Virus record (IMG/VR): IMGVR_UViG_3300032236_002285
Coordinates: 1-64,000 of that record
From: a virus
DNA: 64,000 nt
Strand: one strand, 5' to 3'
A program made the translations under genes and the position numbers. The notes under the pieces were generated by a model, which was given only the letters and a program-made list of their open reading frames with translations, ran no database searches and was not told the origin of the DNA. Shown here piece by piece: positions 54,435-63,809 of the stretch. Numbering within the stretch: the first letter of the stretch is position 1; every line of letters starts with the position of its first letter.

Positions 54435-56162
54435 ATGGCATCTTATAATCAATTTCAAGCCGGCTCAGGTCAATCAAATTTCACTTATACAAATAGTGCT
54501 GTTGAAAATAAAGGACTTTTTAGTAGAATTTTAAGAAGTTTGTCATCATACGGTATGAACTATGATGATATGATTGTTAGAAACCAAGTTGGTATTGGTA
54601 TCAACGAAGATCCATTTGCTGCTAGAGGAAACTCAATGTATGATTTCTTTTCACAAAGAGCAGTGGCTTCTGTTTTAAACAGAAAATCAATTCCTTATTT
54701 AGATAAAGCATACGCTGATAAAAGAAGAATTCTAAGAGAATATTCAATTAAAGATGAAATCAGAGATTTCGTTAGTTCTATTACAGATGAAAGTATTGTT
54801 TATAATGATGAAAGAGATTTTTGCTCACCTGCTGCTTTAGGTAATGACTATTCTCAAGAAATTAAAGATAAATACCAAGAATATTTTGAAAAAATTTATA
54901 ATAAATATGGCTTTGGTGATAACATCACAGCTTGGAATATGATGAGAGATTTCTTAATTGATGGTTATCTAGCATTGGAAGTTATTTATGATGATAAGAA
55001 AAAGAATATTATTGGTTTTAATAGATTAAGACCTGAAACATTAGTTCCCGCATTTGAACCAACAATTGGTCACTTGTGGATCCAGTTTCCAGAAGATCCT
55101 CAATTAAGAAGAATCTTCTTAGACTCTCAAATTGTTTATATCTCATATTCAACTCAAAATGATTATTCAGAAACATCTTATGTAGAGGGTTTAATTAAAC
55201 CTTATAACCAATTAAAGATTCTTGAACAAACAAGAGTAATGTTTAACATTATTAATGCTACGGTTTATCAAAAGTTTACTATTCCTATTAAGGGTTTATC
55301 AAGACAAAGAGCCGAAGAACAAATCGGTCAATTGATTAATGACTATTCGGAAGAAGTTGAATGGGATGATTCATTAGGTACATTAACTATTAATGGTGCT
55401 AAACACTTACCTTATAATAAACAAATTTGGTTCCCTGAAGGAGATGCTGGTACTCCAGCTATGGAATTGGTTTCACCTGAAGGACATAATTTGAATGAGT
55501 CAGATATGTTGACTTGGTTCTACAATGCTCTAAAAAGAGCTTCTAAAATTCCTTTCCAACGTTTTGATAAAGAAAATGGTGGTGGTAACTTAATCAATGA
55601 CTCATCAGATATGACAAGAGATGAGATTAAATTTTATAACTTTATTAATAGATTAAGAGCTAACTTCAAAGAGATTATCGTTAAGCCGTTAAAACTTCAA
55701 ATGTTAATTGAGTTTCCTGAATTAAAAGAAGATGAGGTTCTTATGAACCAAATTGATATTATCTTTAACTCAAATCAAGTATTTGAAGAATGGAAAAAAT
55801 TAAATAATTTGGCTAAGAAAGCTGAAATATTTGGTACTTTAGTTGGTATTATGAATGGTGAAAAACCTTACTTCCATATTGAGTATTTAATTGATAACGT
55901 ATTCAAATTAACTCCAGAAGAAAAAGCAGAAAACCAAAAATATTGGGCTAAAGATGCCGCTGGTGCTCCTGGTGGAGGCGGTGGTGCTGGTGCTCCAGGT
56001 GGTGAAGGCGGTGGTGAAGGCGTTGTTCCTGGTGAAGGCGGTGAAGCCGGTGGTGGTGAGGCTCCTGAAGCTGGTGGTGCTCAAGCTGCTCCTGAAGCTC
56101 AGGCGGCTCCTGAAAATCCTCCTCCAGCCGAAGGTGGTGGTGAAACCGAATTTGAATTCTAA
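54435..56162 (+). CDS. 20: Portal protein (T4 gp20-like)
   Basis: A 575-residue protein. The conserved portal blocks include FDAR-like DPFAARGNSMYDFF, FVSSITDESIVYND (residues about 112-125), MMRDFLIDGYLALEVIYD, IVYISYSTQND, and the stem/wing segment YNALKRASKIPFQRFD followed by SDMTRDEIKFYNFINRL, which is highly typical of gp20. It forms the dodecameric entry ring for DNA and docks the terminase. The last 65 residues are a Gly/Ala/Glu/Pro-rich tail (GGGGGAGAPGGEGGGEG type), absent in T4 and probably disordered. Terminated by a strong bidirectional hairpin. Confidence 0.93.
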   Translation: MASYNQFQAGSGQSNFTYTNSAVENKGLFSRILRSLSSYGMNYDDMIVRNQVGIGINEDPFAARGNSMYDFFSQRAVASVLNRKSIPYLDKAYADKRRILREYSIKDEIRDFVSSITDESIVYNDERDFCSPAALGNDYSQEIKDKYQEYFEKIYNKYGFGDNITAWNMMRDFLIDGYLALEVIYDDKKKNIIGFNRLRPETLVPAFEPTIGHLWIQFPEDPQLRRIFLDSQIVYISYSTQNDYSETSYVEGLIKPYNQLKILEQTRVMFNIINATVYQKFTIPIKGLSRQRAEEQIGQLINDYSEEVEWDDSLGTLTINGAKHLPYNKQIWFPEGDAGTPAMELVSPEGHNLNESDMLTWFYNALKRASKIPFQRFDKENGGGNLINDSSDMTRDEIKFYNFINRLRANFKEIIVKPLKLQMLIEFPELKEDEVLMNQIDIIFNSNQVFEEWKKLNNLAKKAEIFGTLVGIMNGEKPYFHIEYLIDNVFKLTPEEKAENQKYWAKDAAGAPGGGGGAGAPGGEGGGEGVVPGEGGEAGGGEAPEAGGAQAAPEAQAAPENPPPAEGGGETEFEF

Positions 56163-56206: not shown

Positions 56207-56656
56207 TGCTGCTTGTTTTGGATAATCTATATAAAAGTATTTTATATTATTGTCAATGATTAATTGATTAATTTCAATCTCTACATTTGATTCTATCAAT
56301 GATTTTAACAAATCACCCATATCAGTACTTAATGGCTTTATACCTAATGTTAGTTTTTCAACTAAGTCGTCTTTTATTATAAAGTGCATAGACTTTACAT
56401 CAAAACAAGCTTCTTTTATTTTTGCTTCTTCTTTAATATTTGGTGTCATCATACCCCAAATCATTCCTTTGTTGTATATTTCTTCAATATCAAACTGAAC
56501 TCTTCTTCCTTCTAATAAGTTAGTTAGTTTAATCTCTCTTTTAAATGAAATCCAGTCGCTAAAATTTTTAAGTATATCTTCATAATACTCTAATTTAGCA
56601 TCTTTTAAAATGACATCATATTTATATGTTTCACTATTTAATGATAAAAGTCCCAT
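56204..56656 (-). CDS. Hypothetical protein coupled to RNase R
   Basis: A 150-residue soluble protein beginning MGLLSLNSETYKYDVILKD, with mixed alpha/beta character. Its ATG overlaps the stop of the RNase R gene (TAATG), so expression depends on that gene. No recognised motifs or cysteine sites. It may be an accessory factor for the nuclease or unrelated. Confidence 0.7.
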   Translation of the reverse strand: MGLLSLNSETYKYDVILKDAKLEYYEDILKNFSDWISFKREIKLTNLLEGRRVQFDIEEIYNKGMIWGMMTPNIKEEAKIKEACFDVKSMHFIIKDDLVEKLTLGIKPLSTDMGDLLKSLIESNVEIEINQLIIDNNIKYFYIDYPKQAA

Positions 56657-58536
56657 TACAATAAAGTAAAATCTATTTGTTTTCTTTCTAAATCTACAGA
56701 CTTAACCACAACTTTAAGAGCATCTCCTAATCTAATTTTATCACCAGATTCATTAGTTATTGTGTAGTTATTTGTATCAACTGACCAAGTTCCTTCTAAA
56801 GATTGATATCTAACCATTCCTTCGCACTTACTTTCAATCAATTCAACATACATACCCCAGTCAGTTACACCTGAAACAATACCATCAAATACATTACCTA
56901 TCTTATCTAAAAGATATTCAGCTTGTTTATATTTAATTGAATCTCTTTGAGCCTTAGCCGCAACCAATTCTCTAGCAGAACACCATTTAGCTTGCTCTTC
57001 AATCTTACCTGGATTTCCTTGACCTGCTTTGTTTAAGAAATCAAACAAAATTCTATGTGTAATTAAGTCCGGGTATCTACGAATTGGAGAAGTAAAGTGA
57101 GAATAGTGAGTAAATCCTAAACCATAGTGTCCGATGTTCTTAATTGTATAAGTTGCTTTAGACATACATCTAGTAACTAAAGTCTCAATCATATTTTCTT
57201 CAGGAGTGTCTTTAATCTCTTTTAGTAAGTTATTAAGTGATTTTTTAATTTCAGCTGGATCATCAAAGATTTCCACATCATATCCAAAAGTTTTACAAAC
57301 TCCAACTAAAGCATTTAACTTGTCTATATTTGGTGTGTCGTGAACACGATAAACATTTGCCCAAATAGCATCAGATAAAGTTTTAGCAACTGACTTATTA
57401 GCAAGTAACATAAACTCTTCAATTAACTTGTTGGCTTCTTTTTGTTCTTTGAAATAAACTCCAATTGGCTTTTTATTATCTTCAGCTAATTTGAATCTTA
57501 CTTCAATGCCTCCCATTTCAATGGAACCTTCATTAATTCTTTTCTTTCTAATCTTTTTTGCTAGTGTGTCAAGTAATCTAATTTCTTTAGAATAATCACC
57601 ATCTTTGCCTTCAATGATTTCTTGTGCTTCTTCATAAGCATATCTTCTATCAGAATGAATAACGGTTTTACCCATCCAAGTATTTAATATCTCACCATTA
57701 CTATTCAAAGTAAATACAACAGAAAATGCTAATCTGTCTTCGTGTGGTTTAAGTGAACATATACCATTACTTAAACGTTCTGGTAACATTGGAACACATC
57801 TATCAACTAGATAAACAGAGGTAGCTCTTTTGAAAGCTTCATCGTCTAATTTAGTTCCTGGTTTAACATAGTGACCTACGTCAGCAATGTGAACACCTAC
57901 TTCAATTTTATTATCACTAATAATATTAACTGATAAGGCATCATCAAAGTCTTTAGCATCAACTGGGTCAATGGTTAAAGTAGTAACACTTCTCATATCT
58001 TTACGAGACTTTATTTCTTTTTCAGTGATAGTCTCAGGAACTAATTGAGATTCATCAATAACTTCTTGTGGAAACTCAACAGGTAAACCATACTCAATCA
58101 TAATTGAGTTCATTTCTGTATTGTTGTCACCTGAATTTCCTAGTATTTTTGTGATTTTTCCTTGTGGTGATTTAGAATCTTCCCACTTTGTTAGTTCAAC
58201 TACAACCTTTTGGTCGTGTTCGGCTTTTAATCCGCCTTTAATATAAAAGTCAACTGGTACTTTATAACTATCAGGTACAACAAATATTGTTTTTTTACCT
58301 ATTTGTACTCTACCGACATATTCAGTTTTAAATCTTGAAACAACTTCAATGACTTTCCCTTCTAATTTTCTTTCGGCTTGAAATATTTGAATTTTTACTT
58401 TATCTAAGTGTAAAGCCTTACCTGTGTTTTTCTTGTAGATAAAGATTTCTTTATCTTCTACTAATAAGGATGCGTTACCACTTGTCGCAAATTCTATCTG
58501 ACCTTCAAATACATCCCCTTCTTTTAATTTTATCAT
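56656..58536 (-). CDS. rnr: RNase R-like 3'-5' exoribonuclease (RNase II/RNB family)
   Basis: A 626-residue protein. Residues about 1-160 hold cold-shock-type beta domains. The RNB catalytic core starts near residue 180 with TLTIDPVDAKDFDDALS, giving the metal-binding Asp series at 190, 196, 198 and 199. It includes DRCVPMLPERLSN, and HYSHFTSPIRRYPDLITHR near residues 473-491. An S1-like domain ends the protein (about 545-626, GIVSGVTDWGMYVELIES). It is shorter than cellular RNase R (about 700-810). A phage copy may degrade host or structured RNA. It is coupled to a small downstream gene and ends near a homing-endonuclease island. Confidence 0.92.
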   Translation of the reverse strand: MIKLKEGDVFEGQIEFATSGNASLLVEDKEIFIYKKNTGKALHLDKVKIQIFQAERKLEGKVIEVVSRFKTEYVGRVQIGKKTIFVVPDSYKVPVDFYIKGGLKAEHDQKVVVELTKWEDSKSPQGKITKILGNSGDNNTEMNSIMIEYGLPVEFPQEVIDESQLVPETITEKEIKSRKDMRSVTTLTIDPVDAKDFDDALSVNIISDNKIEVGVHIADVGHYVKPGTKLDDEAFKRATSVYLVDRCVPMLPERLSNGICSLKPHEDRLAFSVVFTLNSNGEILNTWMGKTVIHSDRRYAYEEAQEIIEGKDGDYSKEIRLLDTLAKKIRKKRINEGSIEMGGIEVRFKLAEDNKKPIGVYFKEQKEANKLIEEFMLLANKSVAKTLSDAIWANVYRVHDTPNIDKLNALVGVCKTFGYDVEIFDDPAEIKKSLNNLLKEIKDTPEENMIETLVTRCMSKATYTIKNIGHYGLGFTHYSHFTSPIRRYPDLITHRILFDFLNKAGQGNPGKIEEQAKWCSARELVAAKAQRDSIKYKQAEYLLDKIGNVFDGIVSGVTDWGMYVELIESKCEGMVRYQSLEGTWSVDTNNYTITNESGDKIRLGDALKVVVKSVDLERKQIDFTLL

Positions 58537-59875: not shown

Positions 59876-62038
59876 ATGAAACCAGTATTAATTATAGAAA
59901 ATTCAACAAACTCTCTTATTAGAGAGAATAATGGTTCACAAAAGAAGGATTATATTTTAGGTGGTACATTCACAGAATTTGGTGTTAAAAACCGTAATGA
60001 AAGAATTTACACTGCTGAGAAATTTCTTCCAGCGTTACAAGAACTAAATGAAAGAATGAGCAGCTTAGGTGTTGTTTATGGTGAGTTTGATCATCCAGAT
60101 GTTTTCGATACATCTCTTTCTAGAGCATCACACATCATTACAAAAGCTAATTATGTTAAAGAGTCAAATCTTGTTAGTGGTGAAATCAGATTATTAAATA
60201 CTTATTGGGGTAGAGAAGCTAAGGCATTGGTCGATGACGGATGTCCTGTTTTTGTTTCTTCAAGAGCAGCTGGTATCACTGAATCAGATGGTACTGTTTC
60301 GTTAAAAAAATTATTCACTTATGATATCGTTGCTGATCCGGGTTTTGCTTCAGCTAAAATGTCTATCAAGACGCTTAATGAATCATTAGGATATAATGAA
60401 AACTCTAACTTTAGGATATATGAAATGTCCGATGAGTCCAAAATAAATCAACTATTTGATATGAACAAAAATGAATTTGTTACAAAGCAACAGTTAACTG
60501 AATATTCTCAGTATTTAGTTAAGGAATTAGCTTCTACTAAAAAAGAAGTTAAAGGTGCTCTTACTAAAGGTAACTTATCTCCAAAGAAAATGGAGCAACT
60601 TTTAGAGTACTATGAAGAGTTAAATTCAACAAATGCTCAAGTTGTTAAATATCTAGATTATTTGGCTGAAAAAGTACAAGTTATGGTTAATGAGAACAAG
60701 TCGTTAAAAGAAACAACTGACAAACTTATTAAGCACAATGACTATTTAGCTGAAAATTTAGAGAAAGCTGTTAACTACTCTGAATATTTAGCTGAAAACT
60801 TAGACAAAAATATTGAGTATTCTGAATACTTAGCTGAGAACTTAGATAAGAACATTTCTTACTCTGAATACATTGCTGAAAACTTAGATAAGAACATTTC
60901 TTACTCTGAATATTTAGCTGAAAACTTAGACAAAAATATCGAATACTCTGAATACTTAGCAGAAAATCTTGATAAGAATATTGCTTATTCAGAATATATC
61001 GCTGAAAACTTAGACAAAAATATTGCATACGCTGAATACATTGCTGAGCACGTTGATAATTCAATTGCTTACTCTGAATACTTAGCAGAACATGTTGAAG
61101 GTAACATTGCTTACTCTGAATACATTGCTGAACATTTAGATGATAACATTGCTTATTCAGAATATATTGCTGAAAATCTTGACAAATCAATTTCATATCA
61201 AGGTTTAATCGTTGAAAAGTTAAATTCTAAAAAATTAAACGAATCAATGAATGAAGAAGATGAGGAAGCTTTCCCATCATTACATGATGCTGGTTTTGAA
61301 GATGCTCACGAAGAAGAAGGTCATGAAGATGCTCACGAAGATGACGAAGAAGATTGTGGTCCAATGGGTCATGAAGAAGAAGGTCATGAAGAAGAAGCTC
61401 ACGAAGACGTTCACGAAAATAAAGAAGAAGATGACGAAGAAGATTGCGGTCCAATGAGTCATGAAGAAGAAGGACATGAAGATGAAGAAGAAGAAAACTG
61501 GGAAGTTAAAGGTAACAGCGATTCTGAATTATCTGAGTCAATAAATAAATTAATTGAAGAAGCTAAAAAACGTAAAGTTTCTGAAAATAGTGATTTGAAT
61601 TTCTTAAAATTCTTAAACAAATCACAAGTAGATAGTTTCTATGCTTTGTCTGATGAAGACCAAGAGGCTGTTAAATTTCACATAAGCGAAAGAAATTACT
61701 TCACATCTAAAGATGTGTTAAGCCTAATCGCAGAAGCACTATCATCTAAGAATGAATCTCTTGAAGAAAGAGTTATCAGATTAATGCCTGAAAACACTAA
61801 GGCTATCTGGAGTCAAATGAATGAATCTGCTAAAAAATCTATCTTATCACAAGCTAGACTTTACCCAGCTGAAGTTTTAATGACTGAATCACAAATTGAA
61901 CATTTCTGGTTAACTAGAAATTTCAAGAAAAACGAATCTGTAACTAAAAAGTTAGTAGCTCATGAAAGTTTAATACAAGAAGATAAACTTTCTGATAATG
62001 ACGTTACTGCGATTATGGAAAGATTCAAAAACATCTAA
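59876..62038 (+). CDS. Prohead protease fused to scaffold (T4 gp21-gp22 type fusion)
   Basis: A 720-residue protein. Residues 1 to about 170 are a gp21-type prohead core protease: FGVKNRNERIYTAEKF (about 35-50), VYGEFDHPDVF with catalytic His 73, and VFVSSRAAG with catalytic Ser 128/129, then LFTYDIVADPGFASA with an Asp. Residues about 287-440 are eleven 14-residue tandem repeats (YSEYLAENLDKNIE type). An acidic His/Glu-rich segment follows (about 460-545), then a helical C-terminus resembling a scaffold. T4 makes the protease and scaffold from separate genes. An internal ATG at 60425 (MSDESKINQ) could give scaffold alone. Precedes the capsid gene as gp21-gp22 precede gp23 in T4. Confidence 0.87.
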   Translation: MKPVLIIENSTNSLIRENNGSQKKDYILGGTFTEFGVKNRNERIYTAEKFLPALQELNERMSSLGVVYGEFDHPDVFDTSLSRASHIITKANYVKESNLVSGEIRLLNTYWGREAKALVDDGCPVFVSSRAAGITESDGTVSLKKLFTYDIVADPGFASAKMSIKTLNESLGYNENSNFRIYEMSDESKINQLFDMNKNEFVTKQQLTEYSQYLVKELASTKKEVKGALTKGNLSPKKMEQLLEYYEELNSTNAQVVKYLDYLAEKVQVMVNENKSLKETTDKLIKHNDYLAENLEKAVNYSEYLAENLDKNIEYSEYLAENLDKNISYSEYIAENLDKNISYSEYLAENLDKNIEYSEYLAENLDKNIAYSEYIAENLDKNIAYAEYIAEHVDNSIAYSEYLAEHVEGNIAYSEYIAEHLDDNIAYSEYIAENLDKSISYQGLIVEKLNSKKLNESMNEEDEEAFPSLHDAGFEDAHEEEGHEDAHEDDEEDCGPMGHEEEGHEEEAHEDVHENKEEDDEEDCGPMSHEEEGHEDEEEENWEVKGNSDSELSESINKLIEEAKKRKVSENSDLNFLKFLNKSQVDSFYALSDEDQEAVKFHISERNYFTSKDVLSLIAEALSSKNESLEERVIRLMPENTKAIWSQMNESAKKSILSQARLYPAEVLMTESQIEHFWLTRNFKKNESVTKKLVAHESLIQEDKLSDNDVTAIMERFKNI
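60734..61195 (+). repeat. Eleven 42-nt coding repeats (14-residue units) in the scaffold
   Basis: Eleven successive in-frame units of 14 residues with consensus Y-S-E-Y-[LI]-A-E-[NH]-[LV]-[DE]-x-[NS]-I-x. Each contains [LI]-A-E, which resembles the cleavage consensus of the T4 prohead protease ([LI]-x-E). Two heptads per unit suggest a coiled-coil rod. Near-identical units at the DNA level could recombine. Confidence 0.85.
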
Positions 62039-62114: not shown

Positions 62115-63809
62115 ATGTCACACATTAGAATAGACAAAACAAAAGCAGTTAAGAAATGGGCTCCTGTATTGGAGAACATGGGCGTTGCTGCTGATAGAGT
62201 TGAATGGATGTCAGAAATGGCTGAGTATCACTCAATCAATGAAAACGCATATGTAAATGCTTCTAACGTAGCAGGTATGGGTAGTGTATTGAATCCAGTT
62301 GTTGGTTCATTAGCTGGTAACCCAGGTAACTACACAAATGCTTACGGTAACGTAGCAGGTTCTGGCGACGTAGGTCAAAACTTACTTCCAGTAGCTATGA
62401 AAATCGCGGGTCAAACTATCGGTTTAGACTTAGTAGCTGTTAAACCAACTCCTGGTCCAAAAATCGATTTGTTATATATCGACTTCCAATATGACGATAT
62501 TAACACATCATCAAATGAAAGACCACAAGTTTTCAAATTGACTTGTGATAACGTAGCAGCTATCGAAGCAGCTATTACTTCTGATCTTTCTGGTTATTCA
62601 ATTAATCAAAGTCAAGGTGGTTTACAAGGTGGTAGAGTATTCTACGGTATTACTGCATCTAGCGTTTATAAAACAACAACTGAACCAGGTACTAAAACAA
62701 ACATCGTTGAGTTCTTAGGTTTCTCTCGTGTTGATGGTTTACCAATGTTCAGAGCTTACAGACAAAATAACTCTACAGCAGTAGGTGCTTATAATAACAC
62801 TTTTGACGCAACTAAAAACACTTTTGACCAAACTAGTCCAATAGTTTCTCAAATTTTAAGTATCTCTGGTGTAACTCCAACAGCTAACTCTAATAAAGCA
62901 GTTCAATTAGTATCTGCTCTTGAAGATCATCTTCCTGGTTTCTCTGCAAACTGGACATCTTCTACAGGTGCTGCTTCTGGTAACTACCCAATGGGTCGTC
63001 AAGCAGATGATGACAGCTATGCTGGTGTTATCGGTCCAAAAATTTCTTCTAAAACTGTTGCAGTTGGTACTATTGAAGTATCTTCAGCTCTTAGAAGAAC
63101 TGAAATTGAAGATATCAAAGCTAATACAGGTATGGATATCGTTCAAAAAATGGAATCAATCCTTGTTAACGAACTTTCTCAAACAATCTCTAAACAAATT
63201 GTTGCTAAAGTATTCGAAATGGGTGATTTGAACAGAACAGGCGCTCCTGCTTCTTCTGCAACTGCTAACCCTAACTCACTTTCAGGTTGGACAATTTTTG
63301 ACTTGGATACTGCATACGCATCTAACCAAGTTGGTGGTGAAACAACTCACGCTGTTCAACGTAAGTTGATCACTAAGATTGCTCACGCTTCTAACTATAT
63401 CGCAACTGAAGGTCGTGTTGGTCCTGCTCAATACCTTATCACAAACGGAGGTCTTGCTGCCGCTTTACAAGATATCGCTGGTTATACAATTAACCCAGTT
63501 AAATCTAAATTAAACGGTCAAGGTCAACTTTATCCAGTTGGTTCAATCGGAGATATCTCTATCTATGTAGATCCATATCAAAGATACAACGATAATAGAA
63601 TCGTTCTTGGTAGAAAAAACAACCCAGATCAACCAGGTATCATTTTCGTACCTTACTTGATGGCTCAGTCTATCTCAGTTATCTCTGAAGCTACATTCGC
63701 TCCACGTATGTTACTTCGTTCAAGATACGCTGTAACTGAAGTTGGTTGGTACCCACACAAGCAATACATGACTATTAAAGTTAATGATGCTGCTCAATTA
63801 CTTAACTAA
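62115..63809 (+). CDS. 23: Major capsid protein (T4 gp23-like)
   Basis: A 564-residue protein (T4 gp23 is 521). The N-terminal propeptide (KKWAPVLENMGVAADRVEWM) and INE at about residues 41-43 give a likely prohead-protease site before NAYVNASNVAG. The HK97-fold body is seen in LLPVAMKIAGQTIGLDLVAV, RRTEIEDIKANTGMDIVQKM with LVNELSQTISKQIVAKVFEMG, YLITNGGLAAALQDIAGY, and the C-terminal RMLLRSRYAVTEVGWYPH block. Codons end in C and in A/T-light forms more often than in neighbours, as expected for a very abundant protein. Preceded by a TTATATATA-type promoter element and followed by a terminator. Confidence 0.95.
   Translation: MSHIRIDKTKAVKKWAPVLENMGVAADRVEWMSEMAEYHSINENAYVNASNVAGMGSVLNPVVGSLAGNPGNYTNAYGNVAGSGDVGQNLLPVAMKIAGQTIGLDLVAVKPTPGPKIDLLYIDFQYDDINTSSNERPQVFKLTCDNVAAIEAAITSDLSGYSINQSQGGLQGGRVFYGITASSVYKTTTEPGTKTNIVEFLGFSRVDGLPMFRAYRQNNSTAVGAYNNTFDATKNTFDQTSPIVSQILSISGVTPTANSNKAVQLVSALEDHLPGFSANWTSSTGAASGNYPMGRQADDDSYAGVIGPKISSKTVAVGTIEVSSALRRTEIEDIKANTGMDIVQKMESILVNELSQTISKQIVAKVFEMGDLNRTGAPASSATANPNSLSGWTIFDLDTAYASNQVGGETTHAVQRKLITKIAHASNYIATEGRVGPAQYLITNGGLAAALQDIAGYTINPVKSKLNGQGQLYPVGSIGDISIYVDPYQRYNDNRIVLGRKNNPDQPGIIFVPYLMAQSISVISEATFAPRMLLRSRYAVTEVGWYPHKQYMTIKVNDAAQLLN

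Follow-up and report, generated by a model that had tools for sequence, protein, structure and literature searches.

In lambda (C/Nu3), P2 (gpO) and the herpesviruses (UL26/UL26.5), protease and scaffold are encoded in one frame, and in several of these systems free scaffold comes from an internal start or transcript. In T4, gp21 cuts the scaffold and the capsid protein after [LI]xE, and the protease itself has an N-terminal site of this kind, LIE-9 (PMC9026906). The proteases of SPN3US (gp245) and phiKZ trim their own C-termini (PMC5694885). Separate protease and scaffold genes were found in T4, 121Q, BF, GAP32, MIJ3, PA5oct, cyanophage P-RSM6, a Rhizobium phage and a Campylobacter phage. The locus described here lies in a window that spans the opening 64 kb of a viral record of 476 kb, and its protease and putative scaffold form a single ORF.

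Results

Head Gene Locus and Protease Domain

The head gene locus comprises the following features.

54435..56162, + strand: portal protein, gp20-like, upstream head gene (Pfam PF07230, 4.7e-59)
59876..62038, + strand: fused S77 prohead protease and scaffold ORF, ATG start, 720 aa; one ORF in all full-length relatives examined
59876..60382, + strand: predicted protease domain, residues 1-169 (PHROG 207, 1.2e-31; model matches T4 gp21, 5JBL)
59891..59899, + strand: N-terminal [LI]xE site IIE-8 (50/50 near relatives and distant ones; cf. T4 LIE-9)
60092..60094, + strand: predicted catalytic His73 (aligns with T4 H85)
60257..60262, + strand: Ser128/Ser129 (align with T4 S140/S141)
60374..60382, + strand: post-protease [LI]xE site LNE-169, where the protease is predicted to cut itself off from the scaffold (50/50 near relatives)
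60408..60437, + strand: candidate RNA hairpin within the coding sequence (synonymous constraint, pairing kept, stability versus recodings)
60425..60427, + strand: ATG184, poorly conserved (41/50 near relatives)
60461..60463, + strand: ATG196, stronger candidate for an internal start yielding free scaffold (66/66 plus L008, L009, L010)
60725..61186, + strand: eleven contiguous 14-residue repeats, residues 284-437, LAE/IAE in each (profile; inside predicted helix 277-449)
61220..61522, + strand: acidic His-rich segment, residues 449-549, predicted disordered, length-variable
61526..62029, + strand: C-terminal helical domain, residues 551-718, IWxxL...FWxTR motif (common to other fused proteins; hmmsearch and model)
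62115..63809, + strand: major capsid protein, gp23-like (Pfam PF07068, 4.5e-27)
62235..62243, + strand: predicted capsid protein propeptide cut site INE-43 (hydrophobic-x-E kept in relatives and Tenacibaculum phages)

The gene order is portal, protease-scaffold, capsid, with the fused ORF adjoining the major capsid gene. An RNase R-like gene (RNB domain, E 1.3e-110; 56656-58536, - strand) lies between the portal and protease genes, beside small genes without known function. The C-terminal tail of the portal protein (55950-56162) is of Gly/Pro/Ala/Glu low complexity.

The first part of the fused protein matched PHROG 207, head maturation protease. The 720-aa protein scored 20.2 bits against Pfam S77, i.e., under the cut-off of 27, and 36/37 relatives matched this family (best 1.3e-15). 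An AlphaFold model made separately for residues 1-175 had a mean pLDDT of 82. Its top Foldseek match was T4 gp21 (5JBL; E 3.8e-6, TM 0.61-0.66), with the herpesvirus proteases far behind (next match VZV, weak). The gp21-type catalytic blocks named in the first-pass annotation (H73, S128/129) are present and align with those of T4. As judged from sequence and predicted fold, residues 1-169 are a T4 gp21-type (S77) serine protease.

Distribution of the Fusion

Protease and scaffold form one ORF in every full-length relative examined, i.e., in about 85 IMG/VR contigs of the same clade and in about 15 contigs of a second clade around LR756500. Thus, the earlier claim that both are encoded as one polypeptide was borne out. 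The closest database matches of the fused gene were LR745206, LR756502, LR756501 and LR756504, phages of 634-735 kb. The fusion was also found in the cultured Tenacibaculum phages pT24 and PTm1, in the Prevotella Lak phage Lak-B3 when TAG is read as Gln, and in a contig binned as Psychroflexus (L154). L154, which is 4.5 kb long and belongs to a Psychroflexus MAG, carries a fused gene of 48% identity and reflects either a possible host link or a binning error. The carriers of the fusion are giant phages of Bacteroidota, among them the largest phage genomes known, and the Mahaphage clade is predicted to infect Bacteroidetes (PMC7162821). Searches of the open literature returned no published description of the fusion. 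Plain gp21 proteins also bear the GenBank name 'prohead core scaffold and protease', which is therefore not evidence of fusion.

The ORF is read here as a head-assembly precursor (probability of about 0.74) in which a gp21-type protease and an in-frame scaffold would be cut apart after assembly. First, the fusion would carry the protease into the prohead core along with the scaffold. Second, after assembly, the protease would cut [LI]xE near its own N-terminus (IIE8) and after LNE169, and would thereby be freed from the scaffold. Third, cuts would follow in the scaffold (about 25 sites, repeats included) and in the capsid propeptide (after INE43). Extra protease-free scaffold would probably come from the internal ATG at 60461. 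Against this mechanism, cut sites inside a continuous helix may be poor substrates.

Scaffold Region and the 14-Residue Repeat

The scaffold (about residues 196-720) is probably a long coiled-coil rod of 14-residue repeats followed by a flexible acidic segment and, at the C-terminus, a small helical domain. Because the C-terminal part is without sequence similarity to gp22 (homology was not detected; profile-profile probability 0.3%), the label 'scaffold' rests on position, composition and helicity: the region between the protease and capsid is helical and rich in [LI]xE, as is gp22. The C-terminal domain is common to the fused proteins tested (hmmsearch: PTm1 6.5e-13, pT24 1e-9, Lak 6.9e-9) and absent from the gp22 proteins tested. 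Patches of synonymous constraint were seen in the scaffold C-terminus (61556-61594 and 61769-61807) and in the capsid gene (codons 311-323 and 339-351). Within the acidic His-rich stretch, 61290-61500 encodes recurring copies of DDEEDCGPM-HEEEGHE and differs greatly from one relative to another.

The eleven repeats, each with [LI]-A-E, that had been noticed at first reading proved real, with LAE or IAE in 11/11 contiguous units; two weaker units (207 and 256) and one degenerate unit (438) were also seen. They do not follow the protease straight, as had been stated; about 115 residues separate the array from it. The array goes beyond chance expectation and recurs in about 50 non-redundant relatives, usually with 13 scored units. 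Tyr at unit position 7 is nearly invariant and the most constant residue, followed by Tyr4, Ala9 and Glu10. [LI]xE occurs 7.1 times per 100 residues, compared with 3.2 ± 1.2 in shuffles. Since the mirror motif Ex[LI] is even more frequent in the repeat (12.3 per 100), part of this enrichment is that of a mere amphipathic repeat.

The repeat may instead be a coiled-coil rod of nearly fixed length that sets core geometry, with [LI]xE arising from the amphipathic pattern and cleavage occurring mainly outside the rod, and the chance of this is little short of even. AlphaFold predicted one continuous helix over the repeats (277-449, moderate confidence with pLDDT about 70; whole-chain pTM 0.28), the copy number is nearly constant (13 scored units in 35/53), and the 14-residue period is retained in a sister clade at about 35% identity. 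The enrichment of Ex[LI] points the same way. However, the P1-like Glu is the best conserved polar residue after Tyr, which goes beyond the needs of a pure rod.

Candidate Internal Start for Free Scaffold

For the precursor reading, an internal start yielding free scaffold is plausible from the conservation pattern. The ATG at 60425, proposed earlier as the second start, exists, but it is missing in 9/50 near relatives and three distant ones, where TTA/CTA, ATA or ATT replaces it; 60461 is the better candidate. Met196 is kept amid a variable linker, and Met occupies the equivalent position in L154 and the remaining members of the L010 clade. The A fraction upstream of ATG196 was 0.51, i.e., above the background of 0.38, with 0.60 for the true start. 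The junctions of PTm1 and pT24 showed no obvious internal Met, and the internal start may therefore be confined to particular clades. Thus, the supposed likeness to nested protease/scaffold genes holds for the single frame and shared C-terminus; an internal start, more probably at 60461 than at 60425, would be a further likeness.

Shine-Dalgarno-like sites were found in 0/149 ORFs of the window and contigs L103-L106, and the AGGA before ATG184 is therefore probably meaningless. This result and the loss of ATG184 in many relatives led to the rejection of a Shine-Dalgarno-driven start at 60425. Anti-SD sequestration by the Bacteroidetes ribosome, reported in a reference cited in PMC9723584, agrees with the absence of such sites. 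In the same ORF set, TATATA[CG] is enriched, chiefly at 10-13 or 24-42 nt ahead of start codons, and AAAATAA chiefly at 13-25 nt. A promoter at the junction was rejected, the motif there being essentially unique in the genome and dissimilar to the TATATA[CG] motif found upstream of genes.

Production of the 1:1 protease-scaffold fusion only, with the internal Met and the hairpin starting no translation, has a real chance of being correct but is the less probable case. The lack of Shine-Dalgarno sites, with the AGGA probably void, would fit it, as would the further constrained patches in the fused gene and the capsid gene. Retention of Met196 across lineages in a variable linker with A-rich DNA upstream argues against it, as do the copy numbers of T4, i.e., about 100 protease versus 576 scaffold copies (PMC5694885).

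The candidate hairpin lies just upstream of the ATG at 60461, at the protease/scaffold boundary, and is conserved at the nucleotide level. Codons 178-187, one of several constrained patches in the fused gene and the capsid gene, include rare codons that are kept throughout the clade and also in the 735 kb phage (AGG 63/66, ATA 63/66, TCC 59/66). Constrained third positions are mostly paired in the predicted hairpin, and loop positions vary more. Pairing was kept in 96.7% of cells; since all changes were one-sided and no two-sided (compensatory) change was seen, the hairpin is a candidate only. Its stability exceeded that of synonymous recodings (p 0.004 to 0.07 depending on sequence), and folding energy alone did not single it out within the gene. 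All database matches to the motif (118/118) lay in fused-gene context. The element is a sub-clade feature, because the model found none in L009 or L010 and L154 folds differently. A known structured RNA was rejected (no Rfam match), as was a programmed frameshift at the junction, with no slippery site seen upstream on informal inspection. It is an unlikely, speculative extension that the hairpin controls free-scaffold initiation at ATG196 versus the fusion, with no SD, while the near-fixed rod serves as a ruler for a very large head. If so, one gene would set the protease:scaffold ratio in the largest phages without Shine-Dalgarno signals.

Predicted Cleavage Motifs

IIE8 and LNE169 are kept in all near relatives, IIE8 in distant ones too. 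E169 is invariant even among the separate-gene proteases in alignment A5, and the T4 counterpart of this site is ITE-187. The residue following LNE169 is Ser, and that following capsid INE43 is Asn. At the capsid propeptide boundary, the megaphages of both clades carry the hydrophobic-x-E motifs INE, MNE, IHE, IKE, LYE and LNE, the Tenacibaculum phages ILE and INE, and T4 LTE, the position of the T4 cut. Since the capsid proteins keep hydrophobic-x-E at this boundary, the T4 rule L/I-x-E is probably valid here, with [LI]xE as the likely recognition motif for cutting. Because [LI]xE is conserved at the N-terminus, after the protease and in the capsid propeptides, the protease could credibly be released from the scaffold, and self-cleavage just after the protease domain is likely. 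The conservation of IIE8, LNE169 and the capsid site is, at the level of sequence, the best evidence for self-release, and these sites are located outside the repeat. Support falls on the sites at the protease ends and in the capsid propeptide, and not on the first suggestion that the repeat is specially a chain of cut sites.

A purpose-built array, with an obligatory cut at every LAE/IAE and digestion of the scaffold to 14-mers, appears rather unlikely. All 11 units match, conservation of the unit Glu reaches 92-100% across near relatives, L008 and L009, level with Ala9 and Tyr4, and P1' in the repeat is mostly Asn/His/Ser, with Asn at the capsid sites. However, [LI]xE is scarcely denser here (7.1 per 100 aa) than in T4 gp22 (5.95) or 121Q (6.5), the mirror motif is commoner, the predicted helix is continuous, and the most constant unit residue is Tyr7. 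The sister clade keeps the period, yet 41% of its units match strict [LI]xE and 59% do not (70% match if V/M is allowed), while its capsid site stays L-x-E. From sequence and model, the array looks mainly like a coiled-coil rod able to be cut rather than an array shaped by cutting alone.

Ancestry of the Fusion

An origin of the frame fusion in sequencing or assembly error is practically excluded and already refuted, because independent sequences, i.e., all full-length contigs of two clades, the cultured Tenacibaculum phages and Lak, carry the identical fusion. In the protease tree, the fused rows form one clade (support 100/99), with phage PAU as the sole exception; PAU has split genes and nests with the Tenacibaculum phages. 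The tree, inferred from sequence, fits either a single fusion plus a fission or fusion on two occasions, so that the PAU split is a probable fission unless the other fusions are separate. PAU gp152, annotated 'scaffolding', did not match the C-terminal domain and was rejected. PAU gp155 (L155 6390-7136), acidic, of 248 aa, without function note and with 16 [LI]xE, looks like a better scaffold candidate than gp152. Ancestry by readthrough was also rejected: protease and scaffold are in-frame in 121Q, BF, GAP32 and MIJ3, but single-piece tblastn selects for that, and further stops lie between them in these phages.

Discussion

The precursor reading supplies a concrete scaffold candidate for the clade that has the largest genomes among phages. 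The physical link of this candidate to the protease would be a simple way to bring the enzyme into the core. The reading also offers a map of cut sites that can be tested and, in phages showing no Shine-Dalgarno signals, one particular candidate internal start.

T4 gp21 and gp22 share with this locus the protease fold, the His/Ser residues, [LI]xE at both protease ends, the gene order and an [LI]xE-dense scaffold, but they are two genes, and the scaffolds have no detectable sequence similarity. Lambda C/Nu3 resembles the fused ORF in its one frame and shared C-terminus, whereas its protease belongs to another family; the protease of herpesvirus UL26/UL26.5 is a distant fold relative. In Sphingomonas phage PAU (gp151 onward), the protease nests in the fused clade but is a separate gene. 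Tenacibaculum phages PTm1 and pT24 ('prohead core scaffold(ing protein and protease)') differ in the scaffold middle, which has no 14-residue LAE array, and share one ORF, the protease, an acidic scaffold and the C-terminal FW motif. Likewise, the Prevotella Lak phages have an acidic middle and no repeat rod, but they combine the protease and a related C-terminal domain in one ORF (TAG = Gln).
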